From a virus, in the IMG/VR virus record IMGVR_UViG_3300036885_000200, positions 1 to 26,615 of that record: 26,615 bases of DNA. One strand, given 5' to 3'. Made by a program: the position numbers and the translations under genes. The notes under the pieces were generated by a model. The model had not been told where the DNA came from, did no database searches, and saw only the letters and a list, made by a program, of their open reading frames with translations. This document shows positions 2,435 through 26,615 of the stretch, piece after piece (position 1 is the stretch's first letter; each line of letters starts with the position of its first letter).

Positions 2435-3125
2435 ATTGTTCAAGCACCACGGTCTCTTTTGTAGGAGAGGAACCACCGACAATCAGCTTGTGTCTGGAGC
2501 CAGAACCGAATATCGATTATTGAACTTGACTTCTGGAGATGTGGTGCTGGACATCGGTGGCCACGTTGGAGGGTTCGCTCGCCATGCCGAGGCTCTGGGT
2601 GTGGCAAGAGTCATTTCTGTGGAGCCGGATTCAGACAACTTCGGGCTACTCAGGAAGAACACTATAGGGTTCGGCAAGATCACACGGATCAACAGAGCGG
2701 TAGTTTCTAGCAAGGTGACGAGTTGGAAGGTGACTCTGTATAGAAACACTCACAAGTCCAGGGGGTTGCACACTTTGCTTCCGATGAGAGGTCGCAAGCC
2801 GGTCATCGTGCGAGCGATCCAATTTCTCAAGTTGCTACGGAAATATCGGCCAGACAAAGTCAAATGCGATTGCGAGGGTGGCGAGTACGACCTACTGTTC
2901 AATACCATCTTGCCAAAATTCGTTAAGAGGTTGGCGATTGAGATTCACTTCCAACCCAAAGCTGTCGTTGGGCCTCTGGCTGTCAAATTACACAAGCGAA
3001 TTCTTTCCCAGGGATTTGTGGCTGTTAGAGAGCCAAGGTTCGGTCTCTACCACAGAAAGGGTGTGGGAATTGTCCCTGTTGGGAGGCATACGTTGGCTGT
3101 CTATAAAAGGAAAATCTATGAGTGA
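2415..3125 (+). CDS. FkbM-family SAM-dependent methyltransferase
   Basis: 236 aa from ATG 2415, which follows GGAGAGGAAG. The frame is open further upstream, but that part overlaps the primase and lacks a ribosome binding site. The Rossmann motif I is VVLDIGGHVGGF, motif post-I is ISVEPD (acidic residue binding SAM ribose), and the FkbM signature is VKCDCEGGEYDLL. FkbM enzymes usually O-methylate sugars or small hydroxylated molecules. The substrate here is unknown; a modified DNA base or a sugar made by the 14-22 kb cluster is possible but only inferred. It overlaps the primase end by 20 nt and the next gene by 8 nt. Confidence 0.85.
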   Translation: MSRLFTKLFKHHGLFCRRGTTDNQLVSGARTEYRLLNLTSGDVVLDIGGHVGGFARHAEALGVARVISVEPDSDNFGLLRKNTIGFGKITRINRAVVSSKVTSWKVTLYRNTHKSRGLHTLLPMRGRKPVIVRAIQFLKLLRKYRPDKVKCDCEGGEYDLLFNTILPKFVKRLAIEIHFQPKAVVGPLAVKLHKRILSQGFVAVREPRFGLYHRKGVGIVPVGRHTLAVYKRKIYE

Positions 3126-3423
3126 GAAGTTGACACACAGAAGCTTGTCATACTATGCTGGTGTGTTCGATGCGAAGGCTAAGATCCACATCCATCAGGG
3201 TGTACCGTATGTCTCACTCTGGATGCGCGGTAGTCTTCCGAGGCGGATCTTCGTTCTGTTCGGAGGGTCTTTCCATGAGTTCGATGGTGGCGGCTGGGTG
3301 CGGTGGTACGGTTCTCACACTGCGAAATTAGCAAAGCGCCTTCGCAAGTATGTAAGGATTTTGTCTGATGATTTTGGAGACCTCGCAGTCGGAGAAACCC
3401 CGAGAAGGCTGAGTGTTCTGTGA
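3118..3423 (+). CDS. Degenerate single-motif LAGLIDADG-like protein
   Basis: 101 aa, ATG 3118 after AAAAGGAAA, overlapping the methyltransferase stop. The segment SYYAGVFDAKAKIHI resembles the first LAGLIDADG helix and strand of homing endonucleases (usual form YLAGFFDGEG). The later part (LFGGSFHEF, then a Trp-rich strand and a helix TAKLAKRLRKYV) fits the alpha-beta-beta-alpha continuation of that fold. The catalytic acidic residue of the motif is Lys here, so cleavage is not expected. It is also short for a monodomain enzyme. It is the last gene before a terminator and the giant RNA. Assignment is by motif resemblance only; it could be an unrelated small alpha/beta protein. Confidence 0.5.
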   Translation: MSEKLTHRSLSYYAGVFDAKAKIHIHQGVPYVSLWMRGSLPRRIFVLFGGSFHEFDGGGWVRWYGSHTAKLAKRLRKYVRILSDDFGDLAVGETPRRLSVL

Positions 3424-3440: not shown

Positions 3441-3464
3441 CCCGAGGATTACTCGGGATTTTAT
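3441..3464 (+). terminator. Rho-independent-type terminator after the primase operon
   Basis: CCCGAG (3441-3446), loop GATTA, CTCGGG (3452-3457) form a perfect 6-bp GC-rich hairpin followed by ATTTTATA. The T tract is short, so termination may be partial. It lies 18 nt after the last stop and just before the promoter-like sequence of the noncoding RNA. Confidence 0.65.
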
Positions 3465-3477
3465 ACCAAGATTTTTC

Positions 3478-3506
3478 TTTACATTGGAACCTAGAAATAG
3501 TAACAT
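3478..3506 (+). promoter_or_regulatory. Sigma-70-like promoter for the large noncoding RNA
   Basis: TTTACA (3478-3483, 5 of 6 matches to the -35 box) and TAACAT (3501-3506, 4 of 6 to the -10 box) are separated by exactly 17 nt. Transcription would begin near 3513, where the structured region starts. A terminator lies immediately upstream and no credible gene follows for about 880 nt. Confidence 0.6.
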
Positions 3507-3512
3507 AATACC

Positions 3513-4371
3513 CTAAGTAAGAAGTGAATAGGGGGCAACGGATACCCGGACGGCGAGTCCAAAAGTAGCTGACCCTTAAACGTCCTTTGACAAATCAAAC
3601 CTTTCAGGCAGTGGTCAGGCGCCACGTGTAAACCAGTTAGGGCCACGGTTCCCGTTGCTTCGGCTTCATTTAGGGAGAGCACCGCAGGGTACGGCTGGAA
3701 ATAAAGGGACGTCTGATTCAAAGCCAAGATGCTCAGTCTTACGCAAGGATCCCTAGACGTAAAGTCCAACAGGAGACTTAGGCTGAGACGGTAGGCAGCC
3801 GGCGAAAGGTAACATACAAAGTTCCACTAGACCAAGCGAACCTCCTATGAGGGAAAAGTTTTCCCCACAGAGGACTCGGTTGGCCGCAGGAGCCGCAAGG
3901 TTTTCTGTCTGCCATAGTGGAACAGGCTAGTGTCTGATGAAACGGACGACGCCCAGAAGGCATGTTGGTGATGGTGGCCAAGACCTTCGTAGCTGGTGGC
4001 CTTTCAGTAGGCTGGTCCGCTTGGCCAGACACGAGAACCGTGGTAAGGACAATCCGAGTCCGATTCTGATAAGTAGTAGATGGGTACTAAAGCCACCCAC
4101 CTGATCCACTATCAGATGAAACCACGTGAGGAGACCAAGGACAAACCAAAGCCACAATGCCAAATATGGCGTGGCAAACCTGTAGGTTCTCCGAAATACT
4201 TCCAGGACTTTGATAGAGTCCGAGCGAAGGTGAGCGCTTATCTGCTATGCCCAAAACCAAAAAGATTACAGTCGTTGGGAAGGTTCCTTCACTGAGAACC
4301 TTCCAGCGACTAGAACCGTTCAGAGATGGACGGCTCTACTCGCTGAAACAAATCGGGTGACGTCCTACGTC
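3513..4371 (+). ncRNA. Giant structured noncoding RNA candidate (GOLLD/ROOL-like or new)
   Basis: About 860 nt with no credible gene and with dense pairing. Perfect or near-perfect helices include: 3548-3551/3557-3560; 3569-3574/3613-3618; 3646-3653 with 3673-3684, capped by a GC(TTCG)GC tetraloop at 3657-3664; 3709-3714/3755-3760; 3821-3829/3915-3923 (9 bp); 3930-3936/4026-4032 (7 bp), enclosing 3976-3985/4014-4026; 4039-4044/4121-4126, enclosing 4066-4070/4111-4115; 4151-4162/4167-4175; 4205-4209/4217-4221; 4271-4286/4296-4310 (15 bp with one bulge); 4312-4321/4328-4337; 4359-4362/4368-4371. Long-range helices enclosing multi-branched interiors are typical of large ornate phage RNAs such as GOLLD and ROOL. 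I cannot align it to those consensuses, so the class is open. It has its own promoter-like box but no clear terminator, and runs toward the gene at 4392. Role unknown. Confidence 0.75.
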
Positions 4372-4391: not shown

Positions 4392-4676
4392 ATGGCCAAG
4401 AAATCAATTGATAGATTCAGGTGCTCGAGATGTGGCATGTCTAACACGCAGGCTAATACGTTGCTGCGAAAGGCTGGCCACTACAAGTTGGACATGTGCA
4501 TCGACGTTCTGAAGTGTGAAGTCGCTCGTCTCAACAAGGCTCTGGAGAAAGCTCAGGCCCAGCAAGTTCGTCCAGTGACGGCAAATTACGACGAAAAGAA
4601 GATGTCGGCAAAGAGCTTTCATGACCTCTATCTCAGCTACCATCAGAGAAAAGCGAATGACCGACGAGGGATATGA
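4392..4676 (+). CDS. Small Cys-containing protein of unknown function
   Basis: 94 aa. ATG 4392 is chosen because GGAGGTG (4380-4385) sits 7 nt upstream; the TTG at 4377 would place the ribosome binding site inside the gene. FRCSRCGMSN near the N-terminus is a CxxC knuckle, and a further Cys pair (LDMCIDVLKC) may complete a zinc site. The middle (CEVARLNKALEKAQAQQ) is a likely coiled-coil segment, followed by a basic tail. It is the first gene after the large RNA and could be read from the same transcript. Not recognised. Confidence 0.75.
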   Translation: MAKKSIDRFRCSRCGMSNTQANTLLRKAGHYKLDMCIDVLKCEVARLNKALEKAQAQQVRPVTANYDEKKMSAKSFHDLYLSYHQRKANDRRGI

Positions 4677-4698: not shown

Positions 4699-5100
4699 AT
4701 GAAGAAAATAGTTGCGGTTCTGGATACTATGTGGGGAGGAGAAGGTCATGCACCGCGCTTCTTCTGCATTAATCCCTACAATCACAGCGGACGGCGTCTG
4801 TATCGGCTCATAGGCGGCGACGCGAAACTCTTTGTCACAAACGCCTGCTGTGAGTATGTCAACAACGCAAGGAAACATGGCAATCCTGATCCTGACTGGC
4901 TTGCCGAGAATCTTCGTAGGCTTGAAGAAAGGATTGGAATCGATGTGCTCCTCGTATGTGGCAAGATTGCTCAGAGGACATATCGCGACTGCGGCTATCG
5001 TCCGAAGAATGCCAGAGTCCTGAAGATACTTCACCCAGCGGCACGGACCTGGACAAAGGCCAAGATCAAGAGGGTGAGTAGGCGAATTTCAAAAGCATGA
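4699..5100 (+). CDS. UDG-superfamily-like small protein
   Basis: 133 aa, ATG start 7 nt after a modest AAGGGTG. The order of motifs recalls the uracil-DNA glycosylase superfamily fold: FFCINPYNHSGRRLYRL near residues 22-38, the strand VTNAC, the strand LLVCGKIAQRTY, and near the end LKILHPAARTW, which resembles the family's HPS/HPA motif before a helix. The length is short compared with UDGs, which usually exceed 180 aa. If correct, it could recognise or excise a base, or act in mismatch recognition, beside a genome that may carry modified thymidine. It lies between unknown small genes. Moderate confidence in the fold only. Confidence 0.5.
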   Translation: MKKIVAVLDTMWGGEGHAPRFFCINPYNHSGRRLYRLIGGDAKLFVTNACCEYVNNARKHGNPDPDWLAENLRRLEERIGIDVLLVCGKIAQRTYRDCGYRPKNARVLKILHPAARTWTKAKIKRVSRRISKA

Positions 5101-5363: not shown

Positions 5364-6791
5364 ATGGAAAATCATTTCCAGAATTTCGTTGCCACCGTCT
5401 TCAACAAGAAGGCCAAGCAGCTTGAGCTATTGGTCTTCGAGCGAGATGTTCCTAGTCAGAAGGAAAAGGTGAAGGAATCCAAGCGTATTCTGACAGCCTT
5501 GGCAAAGGAATACTCGCGTGTCGAATCCATCGGTTGGTTTACCACTGTCACAACTTTCTCCCAGAAGCCTTTCGTGGTTCCCCCAACCGGCAAAACCCAG
5601 CGGTTCCCTCGTCTGATTCCTCAGTGGGATCCCGAGCAGAAAAGGGTCGTCAAGTTGATCGAAGAGAAATGTGCTGACATGGAAGTCACCGGCAAGGTTG
5701 TCGCCATCAACTCCGGCCCAATCGTTACTGAATACGAATTTGTACCAGAACGTTTCACTCGTGTCAGGCGGCTGAAATCCGTTCACGAAGACTTGGCTGT
5801 TGCTATCCCAGCCGATGCGGTCACCGTCCAGAGGATCCCTGGCAAAGGTTGTGTCGGAATCACGGTTCCGAACAAGGAGCACAAAGTTGTGGATTTCAAA
5901 GCGACCTTGAAAAATGTTCTGGCCCATCGTTATGACATGGCGTTGCCTCTCAATCTTGGCATCCGTGCCAATGGTGACCCGTTCTTGGAAGACCTGACTC
6001 TGCTGCCTCATCTGCTCATCGCAGGGTCTACAAATTCGGGCAAGTCTGTGTTGCTCAATGGGATCATCAACTCATTGACCCATATTCGGTCACCCAAAGA
6101 GCTCCAGTTGTATATGATTGATCCGAAGTCAGTGGAGCTCCTGCCATACAAAGATTTGCCTCATGTGGCTTCGGAGCCAGTTGCAGGAGTGTACGAAGCT
6201 TTGGCTTTGATGGAGAAGATCGTTCTGGAAATGCGTCGGCGGATGTCTTATCTGCAGATCCGCAAGGTCAAGAATCTGAAAGAACTCAATTCACAGTTGG
6301 ACCCCAAGGATCGGCTGCCTTATTGGGTCTTGGTCATTGACGAAATGGCTGACCTGATCCTCCAGGAAAAGAAGCTCTTCATCAGGTCGATGGCCGAGAT
6401 AAGTTCGATGGCCCGCGCTGCTGGGATCCACGTCATTGCTGCTACCCAGAGGCCCAGCGTCGATGTTTTGCCCGGAAAGGTCAAGGTCAATTTCCCTGCT
6501 CGCCTGTCGTTCCGTGTTCCTGGCGATGGGGACTCTCGTACGATACTTGGCCGGAAGGGCGCGGAGCAATTGATAGATCGGGGGGACATGTTCTACATCT
6601 CTCCGTCACAAGCTGGCATGCAGCGTTTGCATTCGCCTTTCTGCCAAGAGACAGATATCGCTCGGATGATTGCGGAAAGCATCGCTCTTGGGGAGAATAC
6701 CTCTGCTGTTCCGGCTGATGGTCCGGTGTCGGACGCTGCTCTCGTTGCAGCGATTCCGATTAAGAATGTGAATGCCACTGTTGTTCAGTAA
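5364..6791 (+). CDS. FtsK/SpoIIIE-type DNA translocase, soluble, no gamma domain
   Basis: 475 aa, ATG 5364 after AAAGGAG (5347-5353). Residues about 85-190 resemble the FtsK alpha domain (GPIVTEYEF, AVAIPADAVTVQRIPGKGCVGI). The RecA-like motor follows: Walker A GSTNSGKS (Lys227), LYMIDPKSVELLPYKDLPH, Walker B YWVLVIDEMADL, the sensor region IHVIAATQRPSVDVLPG and the terminal FSRTILG-like segment GDSRTILGRKGAEQLI. The N-terminal four-helix membrane anchor of bacterial FtsK is absent and there is no winged-helix gamma domain after the motor, so it should be a free cytosolic pump. In a phage it may move, segregate or load DNA; this is inference. Strong family call. Confidence 0.9.
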   Translation: MENHFQNFVATVFNKKAKQLELLVFERDVPSQKEKVKESKRILTALAKEYSRVESIGWFTTVTTFSQKPFVVPPTGKTQRFPRLIPQWDPEQKRVVKLIEEKCADMEVTGKVVAINSGPIVTEYEFVPERFTRVRRLKSVHEDLAVAIPADAVTVQRIPGKGCVGITVPNKEHKVVDFKATLKNVLAHRYDMALPLNLGIRANGDPFLEDLTLLPHLLIAGSTNSGKSVLLNGIINSLTHIRSPKELQLYMIDPKSVELLPYKDLPHVASEPVAGVYEALALMEKIVLEMRRRMSYLQIRKVKNLKELNSQLDPKDRLPYWVLVIDEMADLILQEKKLFIRSMAEISSMARAAGIHVIAATQRPSVDVLPGKVKVNFPARLSFRVPGDGDSRTILGRKGAEQLIDRGDMFYISPSQAGMQRLHSPFCQETDIARMIAESIALGENTSAVPADGPVSDAALVAAIPIKNVNATVVQ

Positions 6792-8460: not shown

Positions 8461-8692
8461 TTGCCACCAAGGGAGCCGAACAGCCTCAGGTGTAGGTGCT
8501 CCCCAATGCACCTGCATAATGTCTTGAGGGCGGCGATGATCCTGGTGGCAACTGTTTGGAGTGGACACTGTTGTGTGTCCCTCCATTGCTGCTCTGCTAA
8601 GGCGATTGGCCTCGCCTGCCTCCGGCCTGGCATTTGTCTGTGTTTCCTCCAGGCACTAAAAGCCAGGAATTTGTAGCAGAGCAGCAATGGAG
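8461..8692 (+). ncRNA. Second structured RNA (or DNA inverted-repeat) candidate
   Basis: 232 nt without a credible gene. P1: 8461-8469 pairs perfectly with 8543-8551 (9 bp) and encloses CCTCA 8484-8488/TGAGG 8525-8529 and 8492-8499/8508-8515 (8 bp, one G-T). Next is a hairpin GGACAC 8563-8568/GTGTCC 8575-8580. Directly abutting it is a perfect 19-bp stem, 8581-8599/8674-8692, that encloses GGCGA 8601-8605/TCGCC 8612-8616 and CCTGGC 8626-8631/GCCAGG 8662-8667. The nested, branched layout suits a folded RNA. The perfect 19-bp arms could instead be a DNA element such as an origin or a miniature inverted-repeat element; I see no target-site duplication. No match to a known class can be made by eye. 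Confidence 0.6.
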
Positions 8693-12109: not shown

Positions 12110-12754
12110 GTGGCTCTTCGTAGATTTCAGAATCTCATCAAGTGGGCAGCCAGACGGTACTCCATTCGGGGAAACTATCGAATGGAGAGAGACGATTTGG
12201 TTGGCGAGGGCCTGCTTGTATTGGTTCGTTGTTGCAACAAATTCCCAACCGGGGAAGAACGGTTCGCTCGATATTTCAAGCGAGCTTTGTATAACCATTA
12301 TAAGAAAATGATTCGTTTTCGAAACCAAGAGATGCGTCGTGGACAGGAGGTTGATCTGGATGCTGTAGAGCCTCACAAATTGTCTCATCAGGACCATTCA
12401 AGGGTAACATGGTTCTGGACGAAAGGGTACAAGCCACACCTATCCTCCGGAGCCTACAAATTCATGGAAGCGATCATTGACCCTGGAGAGGAGGTGACTG
12501 AAACAGCCTGGCGAGATTTCTGTCGGAGAAACAAACTCAACTCTATGGGTATTCTAGTACAAGGCTGGAAGAAGTTCGTGATTAAACCACGCCACATCCG
12601 ACAGGCCATGAGCATTTCTGTAGCAGACGCAAGACGTTATCTTCAAGAAATCCGATCCGTATATACACGACTAAAGGGAGGACTGAATGAAAAATGTAGG
12701 AAAAAAGAAAAAGCACAACAAGGCCAAGAAAGGGAAGTCAGCGCCAGATGCTGA
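12110..12754 (+). CDS. Sigma-70-like factor (region 2 only evident)
   Basis: 214 aa, GTG 12110; no strong ribosome binding site, so coupling to the gene ending 17 nt earlier is likely and the start is uncertain. Residues about 8-70 match sigma region 2: LIKWAARRYSIRG, ERDDLVGEGLLVLVRCCNKF (the D-L-x-x-E-G core helix) and FARYFKRALYNHYKKMIR. The rest lacks an obvious region 4 helix-turn-helix, though residues about 160-195 are helical and basic. It may redirect host RNA polymerase to phage promoters or be a small sigma-related regulator. Its last 68 nt overlap the next gene. Confidence 0.65.
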   Translation: MALRRFQNLIKWAARRYSIRGNYRMERDDLVGEGLLVLVRCCNKFPTGEERFARYFKRALYNHYKKMIRFRNQEMRRGQEVDLDAVEPHKLSHQDHSRVTWFWTKGYKPHLSSGAYKFMEAIIDPGEEVTETAWRDFCRRNKLNSMGILVQGWKKFVIKPRHIRQAMSISVADARRYLQEIRSVYTRLKGGLNEKCRKKEKAQQGQEREVSARC

Positions 12755-13754
12755 TGATGACGACGAAGAACCAAAGAAGAAAAAGAAGTCGGATGATGAA
12801 GATGATGACGATTCCGACGACTCCGATGATGATGACTCCGACGACTCCGATGACTCCGACGATGACGATGATGACTCCGATGACTCCGATGATGATTCGG
12901 ATGAAGACGAAGACGACAAACCCAAAAAGAAGAAAAAGAAGTCCGATGACGATGACGAAGATGAAGACTCGGACGATGACGATGATGACTCCGATGACTC
13001 CGATGATGATTCGGATGAAGACGAAGACGACAAACCCAAAAAGAAGAAAAAGAAGTCCGATGACGATGACGAAGATGAAGACTCGGATGAGGATGACGAA
13101 GAAACTGACGACGAAGACGAGGACGAAGATGAGGAGGAAAAGGGCGGGAAGAAATCCAACCTGGTCCGGATCGATCCCGAGAGTTATACTCCTCGTCCGC
13201 CGTCCTCACCCATCCCTCCTGGTGTACAGGACTGCTTTGGCAAATTCCGCGACCCAGACGTTCCGGAATGCAGACAATGTCTGGAATCCGATAATTGCAA
13301 TACAGTCATGAAAGCCAAGAAGGAAGAAGGCGGAGGTACTGTGAAGAAAGCCAAGAAGAAAGCCAAGAAGGAAAGGGAGGATCGGTCGGAGAAGGAATCC
13401 GCACCGAAGTCCACTGGCCTGTCTGAGACCTTGCAGTCAATCTTGAACAGGTCTCGGTACAAGAAACTTGGTGGTGAACTCACCCAGAAAGCCAAGAAAC
13501 CGTTGTTCTTCGTTTCCATCGCCGGCAAGAGATTCGCTCGGATTGCCAGAGCGAATCGCGATGAGGGATTTGTCGTTCGTCTTTTGACTCGGCTCAAGCC
13601 TGCGGCCATCGGCATGAAGTCTACCGACTGGAAACCTGCTGGCAAGGGCAAATACGAGTTCAAGGGCAATGTGAAATTCCTCGGCAAGAAACTGCGCATC
13701 ATCTTCAAGAAGGCAAAGATGAAGATGAAGGCCAGTGAAGAAGAAGAAGAATGA
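12687..13754 (+). CDS. Asp/Ser-Lys block-repeat protein with CFG zinc motif
   Basis: 355 aa, ATG 12687 after AAAGGGAGG. Residues about 20-150 alternate acidic Asp/Ser/Glu runs with KPKKKKKKS blocks, two units being a perfect 38-residue duplication. About residues 172-208 hold SSPIPPGVQDCFGKF and a C-x11-C-x2-C-x5-C cluster, shared with the protein at 8719. A basic helix (KKAKKKAKKERE) follows. The C-terminal domain of about 105 residues contains SGLSETLQSILNRS, FFVSIAGKRFARIARA and a Lys-rich end with EEEEE. Probably a nucleic-acid-associated, partly disordered protein. A strong terminator follows. No family recognised for the C-terminal domain. Confidence 0.8.
   Translation: MKNVGKKKKHNKAKKGKSAPDADDDDEEPKKKKKSDDEDDDDSDDSDDDDSDDSDDSDDDDDDSDDSDDDSDEDEDDKPKKKKKKSDDDDEDEDSDDDDDDSDDSDDDSDEDEDDKPKKKKKKSDDDDEDEDSDEDDEETDDEDEDEDEEEKGGKKSNLVRIDPESYTPRPPSSPIPPGVQDCFGKFRDPDVPECRQCLESDNCNTVMKAKKEEGGGTVKKAKKKAKKEREDRSEKESAPKSTGLSETLQSILNRSRYKKLGGELTQKAKKPLFFVSIAGKRFARIARANRDEGFVVRLLTRLKPAAIGMKSTDWKPAGKGKYEFKGNVKFLGKKLRIIFKKAKMKMKASEEEEE
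12858..13085 (+). repeat. Perfect 114-bp tandem duplication inside the block-repeat gene
   Basis: Copy 1 (12858-12971) and copy 2 (12972-13085) are identical. Each encodes 38 residues: an Asp/Ser/Glu run, KPKKKKKK and a second acidic run. The length is a multiple of three, so the frame is kept. Perfect identity points to a recent expansion; the copy number may vary between isolates. Confidence 0.92.
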
Positions 13755-18982: not shown

Positions 18983-19009
18983 TGTTTTTGAAATGTTTTG
19001 GAGGCCCCA

Positions 19010-20017
19010 ATGAGTAGCAAGGATCGGTATCGCCCTTGGAGGGAATTACCAAAGGTTAAGGTGGTCCAGAAACATCTGGATGAGTTCTACACGTTCATGT
19101 TTGAGAGGCACTCCATCTGGGTGCGGCGATTTCTCAAAAAGGAGCCTCCGCCATGGACAAAAGATCCGATTCTTCAACACTACAAGTTCGAAAATATCTA
19201 CCGCCAGCTTGACCGTGGCACAATTTGGTACAACGAGCACATCGCTGTTGAGTACCATGATGTAGAGAAGGTCGTCCATCGCGATGATGATCTTGATAAC
19301 GCAAAGATGAACCTCTTATGGCGAACGATTGTGTATAGACTCCTGAATCGAGTGGAGACATTTGAAGCTGTAGGAGGTGTTCCGTCTTGCACTGAGTACG
19401 ACCCTGTTAAATTTGGCAATAGCCTCCGTGAACTCAAGAAGGCGGGCAAGCCTGTCTTCACGAGTGCCCACCTCACACTCCCCACACATGAGATTGGATC
19501 CTCTAAGATTGACAAATACATCGAAGTTCTGAATTACACTATTTCGAACATCGAAGATCTATTCCTTGCAGTGAAATATGCACCTACACTGGAGGCAGTG
19601 TATGAGCGCTTGATGATAGTGCCCTGCATTGGAAATTTTATCTCTTATGAAGTTCTGACAGACCTCGTCATGGTAGGTGCAATCCCTTTCACCCACAACG
19701 ATTTTGTCAATCCTGGGCCTGGCTGCAAGGTCGGGATCTCAATCATCTTTCCGGACAGAAGCTATGTTTCCTTCGTCGATGCAATCAAGAAGCTTTGTAC
19801 TGAGCAGGAGCAGCACTTTGAGAGGCTTGGCCTGAAATTCCCATATCTGGTTGTGGGCGGCAAAGAGAAGAGGCTCACTCTACGGGAGATCGAACACTCA
19901 CTGTGTTGCTTCGCTAAGATTTGGAAGATGAGACACAACTGTGGTAAGGCCAGAATAAAGTTCACTCCGCGAGATGACGAACTCTACCACGGATCGCTGT
20001 TCAAGGCGAAGTCATGA
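19010..20017 (+). CDS. 5-hmdU DNA kinase helical-domain / aGPT-Pplase-type base-modification protein
   Basis: 335 aa, ATG 19010 after TTGGAGG (18998-19004). Residues about 25-75 read FERHSIWVRRFLKK, PPPWTKDPILQHYKFENIYR and QLDRGTIW, the hallmark of the helical (DNA-glycosylase-like) domain described with phage 5-hydroxymethyl-dU DNA kinases and alpha-glutamyl/putrescinyl-thymine pyrophosphorylases. Later matches are NLLWRTIVYRLLNRVETFE, VYERLMIVPCIGNFISYEVL, HNDFVNPGPGCKVGI, LGLKFPYL and EIEHSLCCFAKIWK. These proteins act on bases in DNA during thymidine hypermodification. No P-loop kinase domain is fused here, nor seen nearby, so it may be the stand-alone form. This is the strongest marker that the genome carries modified bases. 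Confidence 0.88.
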   Translation: MSSKDRYRPWRELPKVKVVQKHLDEFYTFMFERHSIWVRRFLKKEPPPWTKDPILQHYKFENIYRQLDRGTIWYNEHIAVEYHDVEKVVHRDDDLDNAKMNLLWRTIVYRLLNRVETFEAVGGVPSCTEYDPVKFGNSLRELKKAGKPVFTSAHLTLPTHEIGSSKIDKYIEVLNYTISNIEDLFLAVKYAPTLEAVYERLMIVPCIGNFISYEVLTDLVMVGAIPFTHNDFVNPGPGCKVGISIIFPDRSYVSFVDAIKKLCTEQEQHFERLGLKFPYLVVGGKEKRLTLREIEHSLCCFAKIWKMRHNCGKARIKFTPRDDELYHGSLFKAKS

Positions 20018-20210
20018 AGAGGATTTCTTTGACCTTCGCGAAAGGCTGTGGCAATCTCGAATAGACCTCAGCAAAGGCAGGAGGGTCTATTTAGGAACTT
20101 ATGCTGACATTATTGAAGCTGCTCAGACATACGATGCGGCTGCGCTCCTCTTTCATGGACAATTTGCCAACCTAAACTTTCCTATTCAGAGATTTCCTAG
20201 GAAATCGTAA
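19974..20210 (+). CDS. AP2-domain fragment
   Basis: 78 aa if ATG 19974 is used; this start overlaps the previous gene by 44 nt and has no good ribosome binding site, so it is uncertain. Residues about 28-72 match the second half of an AP2/ERF domain: WQSRIDLSKGRRVYLGTY, then ADIIEAAQTYDAAALLFHG and ANLNFP. In phages AP2 domains usually follow an HNH homing endonuclease domain; none is present here. It could be a remnant of such a mobile gene or a stand-alone DNA-binding protein. Domain identity is good; being an intact gene is less sure. Confidence 0.65.
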   Translation: MTNSTTDRCSRRSHEEDFFDLRERLWQSRIDLSKGRRVYLGTYADIIEAAQTYDAAALLFHGQFANLNFPIQRFPRKS

Positions 20211-20253
20211 CCTGCCCATCGAGGGGTTTCATTCTTATAAGGGGGATCTAAAT

Positions 20254-20502
20254 ATGGCGGAAATTCTTGAAGATCGGGTCAGAAGAATCGTCGTAGAGCA
20301 ACTTGGTTCGTCTGAAGAAGAGGTCATGCTGAAATCCAAGCTCAATGAAGATCTAGGAGCCGACCCTATTGACTTGGTAGAGTTGGTAATCGATCTGGAA
20401 GAGATCTTCGAGATTGCCGAGATAGATGATGGGGATGCCCAAAAGTTTGTCACGGTCCAGGATCTAGTGGACTATCTAAAGAAGAGAGGAGTCAAGGAAT
20501 GA
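20254..20502 (+). CDS. Acyl-carrier-protein-like, attachment serine replaced by proline
   Basis: 82 aa, ATG 20254 after AAGGGGG (20238-20244). Length and sequence match bacterial ACP: an acidic four-helix protein with VRRIVVEQLGSSEEEV, SKLNEDLGADPIDLVELV and EEIFEIAEIDDGDAQKF, then VQDLVDYLKK. In ACP the 4'-phosphopantetheine is carried by Ser in the DSL motif; here the residue is Pro38 (DPI), so it cannot be loaded in the usual way. It overlaps the thymidylate-synthase-like gene by 4 nt (ATGA). It may bind an ACP partner as a mimic, or serve as a structural subunit of the neighbouring enzyme. Confidence 0.85.
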   Translation: MAEILEDRVRRIVVEQLGSSEEEVMLKSKLNEDLGADPIDLVELVIDLEEIFEIAEIDDGDAQKFVTVQDLVDYLKKRGVKE

Positions 20503-21659
20503 AGGTCTATTCCGGAGTAGGATTAGGTTCGTTCTACCAAGAATTGTTCGCTGATCTGATTGCCCATGGTAGGCAAGTCACAGTTCGTGATCGGCGATGC
20601 ATCGAGATGACAGTGCCTGTGGTTCTTCAGTATGAGACACCTGGCGCCTGCTTTATGAAGATTCCGGGCCGGAGGTTCAACATCTTCTTCGCTCTGGCTG
20701 AGGTTATATGGATTCTCTCTGGTAACGGAAATGTGGAGTGGATATCCTTCTTCAACTCTAACATGAGGAAGTTTGCTGATGAAGGCCAGCCTGATTTTCA
20801 TGGGGCCTACGGCAAGAGGATTCGGGATTGTAGAGGCAGCTATGTAGGCCATTCTATCTACGTGGATCAGATAGAGGCTGTCTGTAACAAGCTCAAGGAA
20901 GACCCCTTTTCCAGACAAGCGATTATCTCCTTGTGGGACCCAATCTCTGACAATAAGCCAGAGTCAAATGACTACCCTTGTAACAATTGGGTGGCTTTCT
21001 CGCTTCGGGATGGCAAGCTGAATATGTCTGTCGCTATCCGTTCTAATGATATCATTTGGGGCACTCCCTATAATGCCGTCCAATTTACCCACTTGCTGGC
21101 CCTGGTTGCAGGTAATCTTGGTGTGCAGTGTGGAGCGATAACCTATTTCGTCCAGAATCTTCATGTGTATGCTGAGTATGAAGGCAGGGGCACGATTCAT
21201 GACGCAATACTAATCCATCCTTCTGACACCAATCAGTCAGACGCTCTAGGATCCGTTGTGCGCAGTGTAGGCGTTCAAGGCTTAGTGGCCTGCAAGATCT
21301 CTAGTTTTGAGCCCATATCTGACGAGAAGCTGAAGCCGACAATCGACTATGTCAACCAATTGGTTGAAGCTTACGGAAAGGGGAATCTCGTTGACCCATT
21401 GCATTATGCAAATATCTTGCCAGGGGTTGGCTACTGGGGCCTCCTTATACCAAAGATGCTTCTCATCTACTGCTCTGTGAAGACAGGAGCAGTATTCACT
21501 CCAGACCAGTATGCCTGGCTCATGGGTTCGATTGCATCTCTTCCAGAGTTGTTCAAGTGGTTGGTGCTGGATTTCTACAAGGGACAGATTGATAAGAATC
21601 CTCTCGCGAAAGAGATCGTTCTCAAATTCAGGAAGGAGGAACCTAACCATGTTGGATGA
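20499..21659 (+). CDS. Thymidylate synthase-family enzyme, possible dUMP hydroxymethylase
   Basis: 386 aa, ATG 20499 with AGGAGTCAAGG upstream. The ThyA-type fold is evident: PDFHGAYGKRIRD, DPFSRQAIISLWDP (phosphate-binding Arg), catalytic Cys161 in DYPCNNWVAFSL, LNMSVAIRSNDIIWGTPYN (the Asn that selects dUMP over dCMP) and AITYFVQNLHVYAEYE. The usual PCH after the catalytic Cys is PCNN, as in divergent phage or biosynthetic members rather than cellular ThyA. It therefore makes either dTMP or 5-hydroxymethyl-dUMP; the neighbouring hmdU-type gene favours the latter. Residues after about 240 are longer than in ThyA and of unknown role. Confidence 0.85.
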   Translation: MKVYSGVGLGSFYQELFADLIAHGRQVTVRDRRCIEMTVPVVLQYETPGACFMKIPGRRFNIFFALAEVIWILSGNGNVEWISFFNSNMRKFADEGQPDFHGAYGKRIRDCRGSYVGHSIYVDQIEAVCNKLKEDPFSRQAIISLWDPISDNKPESNDYPCNNWVAFSLRDGKLNMSVAIRSNDIIWGTPYNAVQFTHLLALVAGNLGVQCGAITYFVQNLHVYAEYEGRGTIHDAILIHPSDTNQSDALGSVVRSVGVQGLVACKISSFEPISDEKLKPTIDYVNQLVEAYGKGNLVDPLHYANILPGVGYWGLLIPKMLLIYCSVKTGAVFTPDQYAWLMGSIASLPELFKWLVLDFYKGQIDKNPLAKEIVLKFRKEEPNHVG

Positions 21660-25506: not shown

Positions 25507-26615
25507 ATGGTCATGACGGCTGATGAGGTGAAAGAGTATCGCAACAAACAGCTGAAAGATCGGGAATCGGGTGGCGGCCAATATTTTGGTGTAGAGGAGG
25601 GTACAAAGTACGTTCGAATTGGCCCTCCTTGGTCTAAGAACGCTGAGTGTTGGCGAGATCGACTGTATCACGGCAAGTATCCCAACAAGCTCAATTGTGC
25701 ACACAACGACGCCAACGAGAAGACAGGCAAGCCTCGCTCTTGTCCAGCATGCAAGAAATATAAGGGACTAAAAGGGGACAAGTCAAAGGTTGCGAGAAGG
25801 CTTTCCGGATATCTGAGACAGAAGTCCGAAGGTCTCTGGAACGTTCTCGAATGCAAGATGAAGAAATCGGATGAAGGGAAGCTCCGTGTTGTTGGGTATG
25901 CTGATGGCAAATTCAAGATCTGGAGAGTCTCTCAACAGTGGCACCTGGATTTGGTTGACATATTTGCTGACGAGGACTATCGCAAGAAGTCAGCTTTTAG
26001 TGTTGCCGCTAAGAAATCTGGCCGGCCAATCCGTGTTGAGCGTGTTGGCAGTGGGATGAAAGACACGAAGTACAAGTTCAAGGTTTTGGACCCGTCCCCA
26101 ATCAGCAAGGATTCTGATCGGATGGAAGCTCTTCTCAAGACCCTCAACGACCTTGACGCAGCTTCTCAAGGGGCGAGCGACGAGGAATTGGAGGCCTTCG
26201 TCCGCAGTATGCTCAAGAAAGCTAAGCATGGTGGCGATGATGACGATGATGAAGACACTGGTGCTGACGTGTCGGACGAGGATGAAGACGAAGAGCCAAA
26301 GTCCAAGAAGAAAAAGAAGTCCAAGTCGGAGGATGAAGATGAAGACTCTGACGACGAAGAGGATGACGAAGATGAGGATGAGGATGAGGATGAAGAGTCC
26401 TCTTCCGACGATGACGATGAGTCTTCCTCCAAAAAGAAAAAGAAGAAAAAGAAGTCTAAAGACGGTGACGAGGAAGATGACGAGGAAGATGACGAGGAAG
26501 ATGAAGATGACTCCGATGATGACGATGAAGAGTCCAAATCCAAGTCCAAAAAGAAAAAGAAGAAAAAGAAGTCAAAGGATGAAGATGAGGACGAAGATGA
26601 GGATGAAGATGACGC
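25507..26615 (+). CDS. T4 gp32-like ssDNA-binding protein with giant charged tail (partial)
   Basis: 369 codons visible; ATG 25507 follows AAAGGAGG (25489-25496), and the frame is open to the window edge. The core resembles gp32-type SSB: a zinc site built from His55, Cys64, Cys79 and Cys82 (LYHGKYPNKLNCAH, SCPAC), an OB-like stretch (LWNVLECKMKKSDEGKLRVV), and FKIWRVSQQWHLDLVDIF. An acidic helix (SDEELEAFVRSMLKKAKHGG) leads into more than 120 residues of alternating Asp/Glu/Ser runs and KKKKKKKKS blocks. Acidic SSB tails bind replication partners, but this length and the Lys blocks are unusual. It would cover ssDNA at the fork with the polymerase and helicase here. Confidence 0.8.
   Translation, partial: MVMTADEVKEYRNKQLKDRESGGGQYFGVEEGTKYVRIGPPWSKNAECWRDRLYHGKYPNKLNCAHNDANEKTGKPRSCPACKKYKGLKGDKSKVARRLSGYLRQKSEGLWNVLECKMKKSDEGKLRVVGYADGKFKIWRVSQQWHLDLVDIFADEDYRKKSAFSVAAKKSGRPIRVERVGSGMKDTKYKFKVLDPSPISKDSDRMEALLKTLNDLDAASQGASDEELEAFVRSMLKKAKHGGDDDDDEDTGADVSDEDEDEEPKSKKKKKSKSEDEDEDSDDEEDDEDEDEDEDEESSSDDDDESSSKKKKKKKKSKDGDEEDDEEDDEEDEDDSDDDDEESKSKSKKKKKKKKSKDEDEDEDEDEDD
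26233..26615 (+). repeat. Low-complexity Asp/Glu/Ser-Lys coding tract
   Basis: From about 26233 the DNA is almost only GAT/GAC/GAA/GAG/TCC/AAG codons in alternating acidic and basic blocks, the tail of the gp32-like gene. No exact long unit repeats as at 12858. It is prone to slippage and to assembly error, so block number should be treated with care. Confidence 0.85.

Follow-up and report, generated by a model that had tools for sequence, protein, structure and literature searches.

The question raised by positions 3513-4371 of a 26.6-kb IMG/VR virus record (26,615 nucleotides, analysed in full and called the window below) is whether a stretch with no evident gene yields a giant structured RNA, as an earlier sequence-only reading had proposed, and, if so, whether this RNA belongs to a described family. 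To our knowledge, very few RNAs of such size and complexity have been described in bacteria and phages (GOLLD, ROOL and OLE), and their functions are open.

Genomic context and coding potential

The window carries a replication and DNA-modification module, of which a DnaB-like helicase, a primase, a UDG-like protein, an FtsK-like ATPase, a DNA polymerase, a thymidylate-synthase-like protein and a 5-hmdU DNA kinase are members. On the + strand, the region follows the genes for the DnaB-like replicative helicase (180-1472) and the DNA primase (1469-2434), the former kept as a neighbour in five RNA-bearing relatives (L002, L003, L004, L090 and L123) and the latter also kept in RNA-bearing relatives. 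Directly upstream of the RNA lies a small protein gene (3118-3423, + strand), the position of which is kept in the relatives as well; its product shares 24-29% identity with the copies in L002-L004, and those of L090 and L123 match the L004 copy. The first gene downstream, on the same strand, is a 94-aa ORF without a family match (4392-4676), followed by genes for a UDG-superfamily protein (4699-5100), the alignment of which led us to L090, and an FtsK/SpoIIIE-like protein (5364-6791). Further along, positions 18998-21659 encode a 5-hmdU DNA kinase helical-domain protein and a thymidylate-synthase-like protein, which suggests hypermodified thymine in the phage DNA.

On the + strand, positions 3513-4371 form a transcription unit that does not code for protein. 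Coding windows had a median period-3 signal of 7.1; the region had 2.6, a value that 12.5% of shuffled sequences reached. The ORFs in the region had no match in PHROGs and a single, spurious one in Pfam (E 0.04), and tblastx of the RNA region against the five relatives returned nothing. The absence of a credible gene, asserted from the sequence in the first place, is thus upheld.

The upstream gene unit is ended by an intrinsic-terminator-like hairpin, CCCGAGGATTACTCGGG followed by ATTTT (3441-3457, + strand), which is a consensus match rather than proof, as shuffles lead one to expect 1.1 such sites and two are present. A sigma70-like promoter, TTTACA-17-TAACAT, follows at 3478-3506 (+ strand) and is in line with the promoter-like box noticed earlier at the start of the region. 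About 0.8 promoters of this kind are expected by chance; L002, L003, L090 and L123 have promoter-like stretches at the corresponding position, with which the one at 3478-3506 can be aligned. With the terminator followed by the promoter, position 3513 is a plausible transcript start, in agreement with the sequence-only reading. The structured noncoding RNA would accordingly span 3513-4344 on the + strand (~830 nt), the 3' limit being set where the last conserved helix ends.

Homologous RNAs in related phages and their 3' domain

We found a homologous RNA at the same place in the five uncultured phages named above, through searches with the helicase, UDG, FtsK and motifs. The order helicase-primase-small gene-RNA-FtsK/UDG region is common to the RNA-bearing phages, the helicases of the five relatives share 46-53% identity with that of the window, and an ORF-poor stretch of ~0.9-1.4 kb occupies the RNA position in each of them. 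A pattern search with the 3' motif yielded one further member, L117/L123, and a contig from a second metagenome (L089) was 100% identical to L003 across the 4 kb compared. Wider searches were empty: distant blastn against 50,697 phage genomes returned nothing, the FtsK single-protein search no viral relatives, the scan with the primase alignment no new close relative, and that with the helicase alignment, over 84,980 genomes, no relative, so that no host or provirus was identified.

Collinear blocks are common to the noncoding stretches, and direct similarity of 3513-4371 to the relatives is weak (best E about 0.03). Among the RNA stretches of the relatives themselves, tblastx gave signals in many frames and on both strands, as a conserved RNA would, rather than a conserved protein. 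The six RNA sequences in all are too divergent for one alignment, and MAFFT over the full RNA length left the middle unusable. One similarity between the region and L004, AGGTAACATACAAAGTTCCAC, was not collinear and was taken as chance.

All six RNAs carry two helices at the 3' end, the penultimate helix Pn and, after 0 or 1 nt, the terminal helix Pt. In the window, Pn is formed by GGAAGGUUC / GAACCUUCC (4278-4304, + strand); its sequence is different in every phage, yet its pairing is perfect, and all eight pairs show double changes across the six phages. Pt consists of (A/G)GCG, a 4x4 internal loop, a 9-bp helix and CGC(U/C), represented in the window (4305-4344, + strand) by AGCG, the 4x4 internal loop, GAACCGUUC/GGACGGCUC and CGCU. 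Over both helices and six phages, 99.2% of cells were paired, a percentage inflated by the hand-picking of the arms and trimming of the loops, and 15 of 21 pairs carried double changes; none of 500 shuffles matched this result. Sliding the partners by 1-3 columns lowered the pairing to 42-51%.

When the window was left out of the training set and a covariance model of the five relatives was applied to the whole record, it gave a single match, at 4279-4344 (24.1 bits, E 0.0019, a rough value with an uncertainty of about fivefold). Among 680 kb of control loci, those not from RNA-bearing phages scored 17.0 bits at best with this model. It missed L090 and L123 themselves, presumably owing to apical loops that far exceed in length those trimmed for the model. 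Thus, Pn and Pt with the 4x4 internal loop, the mark of the RNA family, were both recovered blindly at 4279-4344 and seen to covary in six phages. A six-sequence model applied to 18 records of more distant relatives returned one weak match of 14 bits only. Two further hairpins precede Pn in the five relatives (45 of 45 cells paired and double changes at eight of nine pairs, with hand-picked arms).

Homologues in five relatives, covariation and the blind model match together bear out the giant structured phage RNA of the sequence-only reading; homologues with compensatory changes, the lack of which would have spoken against it, do exist. The compensatory changes concern the 3' double helix, which overlaps the earlier proposed helix 4271-4286/4296-4310, and the helices of the relatives; the proposed helices 3821/3915 and 3930/4026 lie outside this result. 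All helices listed by that reading are present in the sequence, including the long-range 3821-3829/3915-3923 (perfect over 9 bp, enclosing a branched domain at 3821-3923, + strand) and 3930-3936/4026-4032 (perfect over 7 bp, enclosing 3976-3985/4014-4026 within 3930-4032, + strand). Read by eye, the 5' part of the latter (3932-3949) could instead fold as a hairpin, GUCU-GAUGAAAC-GGAC, which resembles the second hairpin (H2) of the relatives, GUCC-GACUGAAC-GGAC, and would compete with the helix 3930-3936/4026-4032. ATGAAAC, proposed earlier as a repeated tertiary-contact module, has indeed no other + strand copies in the entire record than those at 3937 and 4116, but the relatives lend the module no support; tentatively, the hairpin at 3932-3949, kept in the relatives, may account for the copy at 3937 as its loop. 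The folding energy of the region is only moderately unusual (z -2.9 on the + strand and -4.2 on the - strand, 20 shuffles) and does not decide the matter by itself; the excess is clear in the 3' half alone, with z -5.3 at 4140, and the 5' half does not rise above background.

A separate intergenic hairpin of ~100 nt in L003 (19077-19183, the same in L089) has the same parts as the 3' domain, namely GGCGGAG-AUUC-GGAUGCUCUG/CAGAGCAUCC-UAGC-CUCCGCC enclosing GUCCGUACGACUGGACGUAAA. The models gave this hairpin 18.8-20.4 bits, and it may represent a small free-standing copy of that domain.

The boxA leader and the ORF-hosting loop

In the five relatives, the 5' end of the RNA shows a fixed order: a promoter-like region, a hairpin and, 1-3 nt later, the element TGYTCTTTGAAAAATAA, which is exact in L002, L003 and L004 and a near variant in L090 and L123. 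The hairpin is paired in 35 of 35 cells, with double changes at all seven positions. An identical 17-mer of TGYTCTTTGAAAAATAA stands 23 nt upstream of the 16S rRNA gene in a Nitrospira genome, and by its sequence we identify the near-invariant leader element as a boxA. In rRNA operons, boxA is necessary and sufficient for the antitermination complex, and the leader has the order boxB-boxA (PMC10250234); boxA also precedes CRISPR arrays (PMC7862264). Among viral contigs, the boxA pattern hit mostly coding DNA or chance sites, and accompanied the RNA only in the L003, L002 and L004 records. The 17-mer, preceded by a hairpin, was also seen at three contig ends of one Desulfobacteraceae MAG (L235, L269 and L278), positions as expected for a repeated operon leader. 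A further match near Peregrinibacteria (L281) was rejected as a 16S leader, as Rfam shows no rRNA there.

The window itself carries a degenerate boxA-like site, ACGTCCTTTGACAAATCA (3580-3597, + strand), with three mismatches to the core. Scored with a matrix derived from the five relatives, it ranked second among all sites in 53 kb (both strands), and a match this good would fall by chance within 128 nt of its expected position with a probability of ~0.005. The rrn-type arrangement, with a boxA soon after the promoter, is therefore found in near-invariant form in the five relatives and in degenerate form at 3580-3597. Upstream of the site, a small and weak hairpin, GGAC-GGCGA-GUCC (3548-3560, + strand), is a possible counterpart of the leader hairpin of the relatives, albeit it has 4 bp and, unlike theirs, is not adjacent to the boxA.

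Another feature of the relatives is a small ORF at one internal position of the RNA in L003, L004, L090 and L123. The helix enclosing it is paired in 34 of 36 cells over the four phages, with 155-334 nt between its arms. The ORFs are unrelated or loosely alike, encoding a 32-aa Cys-rich peptide, a 97-aa protein and basic proteins of 51 and 52 aa; the 97-aa protein (L004 13254-13547) is homologous to an HNH-like L003 protein, the HNH match of which reached only E 0.04. At the same position, the window and L002 have hairpins and no ORF. As the ORFs differ between phages and are absent in two, they look like guests of an RNA that is itself constant. In the window, the counterpart of the ORF-enclosing helix appears to be an interrupted helix without an ORF, CCAA.CGA.CCUC/GAGG..UCG.UUGG (3832-3883, + strand), with an inner hairpin GGGAAAA-G-UUUUCCC (3851-3865); here GTTTTCCCC-AGAGGA shows collinear similarity to L003 and L123 at E of only about 0.07-1.3. 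The sequence-only reading had picked up neither the boxA leader, nor the conserved gene order, nor the loop that hosts ORFs.

Nature of the RNA and competing explanations

Taken together, we consider it probable that 3513 to ~4344 specifies a stable structured RNA product with a boxA leader, found so far in one lineage of uncultured phages. Its own promoter would start RNA polymerase near 3513, and the boxA would be reached soon after. By recruiting NusB/S10, the boxA would render the polymerase Rho-resistant, as on ribosomal RNA and CRISPR arrays, and this antitermination would allow an untranslated RNA of ~1 kb to be completed and to accumulate. In the folded product, the 5' and central portions would be variable, a peripheral domain could accommodate small ORFs, and two adjacent helices would make up the conserved 3' domain. 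The phage RNA is probably abundant and probably acts as RNA. Points against a stable RNA are that no terminator lies downstream, that the 5' half is unremarkable, that the - strand folds slightly better, that the boxA-like site of the window is mismatched and has no leader hairpin beside it, and that the comparison covers just six divergent sequences. The ORFs in four relatives also leave room for an mRNA-like role.

The first of these points bears on the alternative in which the RNA, as a very long leader or 5' UTR, controls the downstream genes in cis, for instance through a switch in the last helix that frees or hides a ribosome-binding site (RBS). A terminator search downstream of 4344 found none, and an RBS and ORF come shortly after the 3' end of the RNA in the phage of the window and in all five relatives, so that the RNA could be a leader. 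In addition, in the five relatives the 3' strand of Pt, CCGC(U/C), can pair alternatively with a downstream GGCGG or AGCGG (AGUGG in L090) beside the RBS, as read from the sequences (L002 13521-13545, L003 13842-13860, L004 14203-14222, L090 7363-7390 and L123 9302-9335), and this pairing may act as a switch. Nevertheless, the downstream gene appears to vary between phages and the RNA is kept, a length of 0.8-1.1 kb is far above that usual for riboswitches and leaders, and a promoter of its own with a boxA suits a stable RNA. We therefore regard the leader as unlikely, although it is the strongest of the competing explanations.

That a divergent GOLLD or ROOL was overlooked by the Rfam models is very improbable. 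The RNA resembles GOLLD (>800 nt) in being large and phage-borne, with a 3' part better conserved than the 5' part, the latter being able to bear an insert, and ROOL in being elaborate and phage-borne, the latter occurring in phages and prophages with a studied member of 659 nt and a function not known (PMC12286853). Nevertheless, a search with 4227 Rfam models, at gathering scores and at E up to 10, gave only chance matches in the window, L002 and L004, none of them GOLLD, ROOL or an intron, and neither GOLLD nor ROOL matched L003, L090 or L123 at gathering scores. GOLLD and ROOL are typically near a tRNA island (PMC12286853). By contrast, the only tRNA of this record is ~9.5 kb away from the RNA, none was found in the L002, L003 and L004 loci, and the new RNA lies among replication genes. 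Moreover, the relatives have the boxA leader, which sets them apart from GOLLD, and the insert is a tRNA in GOLLD (PMC12286853) and protein ORFs in the new RNA. Thus, of the two options offered earlier, a divergent GOLLD/ROOL or a new class, the former finds no match and the latter is the one supported.

Other known RNAs are alike in some respects only. OLE is also large and ornate and forms ordered oligomers (PMC12286853); nevertheless, it is bacterial, described from extremophilic bacteria (PMC11332333) rather than phages, and no covariance-model match to it was obtained. The rrn leader and boxA-led CRISPR arrays share the series of promoter, hairpin, boxA and long untranslated RNA (PMC10250234, PMC7862264), whereas here the RNA that comes after the boxA is not ribosomal and is not a CRISPR array. 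The nearest counterpart in kind, a large untranslated RNA in an ORF-less phage gap, is the ~800-nt ncRNA of ICP1, which lies in the ~1-kb gp139-gp140 gap and is the most abundant ICP1 transcript in a phage without tRNA genes (PMC7567579). A relation between the two was rejected, as neither a match to the 3' model nor blastn similarity was found; unlike the new RNA, the ICP1 gap has no matching boxA that we could see and has a clear terminator-like hairpin with a T-run. On the basis of the Rfam models and the open-access literature, we judge the RNA to be a new class of large phage ncRNA. As far as its anatomy tells, it would work like an RNA of the ICP1 kind, outside the described families compared.

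The small ORFs at one internal position, one of them HNH-like, recall homing genes in intron loops, and the region could accordingly be a decayed or divergent self-splicing intron or mobile element. We give this idea scarcely any credence, as (i) Rfam models of the group I and group II catalytic cores had no match in the window, L002 and L004, (ii) the RNA is intergenic, has its own promoter and interrupts no gene, and (iii) the inserts vary between phages and are missing from the window and L002, as later guests would. Least probable of all is that the RNA is common to the five relatives and 3513-4371 is an unrelated sequence with fortuitous helices, as the weak direct similarity would allow, since the neighbourhood, promoter, boxA-like site and single blind match all fall where expected.

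For the stable RNA product, a role during replication as a structural scaffold, a decoy or an RNP component is conceivable. A stable scaffold or oligomer, comparable to GOLLD and ROOL, is the likeliest role, a choice we make tentatively, as a decoy or RNP core is equally compatible with the data, which do not discriminate between them. It is attractive to speculate, with similar reserve, that rrn-type antitermination makes the RNA very abundant, that it forms a large RNA-only or RNA-protein particle or a decoy for NusB, S10 or ribosome factors, and that its peripheral loop offers a platform for small genes. A further independent family in another gene neighbourhood is a new comparison point for GOLLD, ROOL and OLE, and the boxA leader hints at how phages in general may escape Rho when making long untranslated RNAs. 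The six sequences supply helices, a blind-tested model and probe-ready constructs.

Two other features of the window were noticed. The proteins encoded at 12687-13754 and 25507-26613 contain very long acidic stretches rich in Asp, Ser and Glu that alternate with Lys runs. A perfect 19-bp inverted repeat, CTCCATTGCTGCTCTGCTA...TAGCAGAGCAGCAATGGAG, lies between two small ORFs at 8581-8692 and forms a very stable hairpin.
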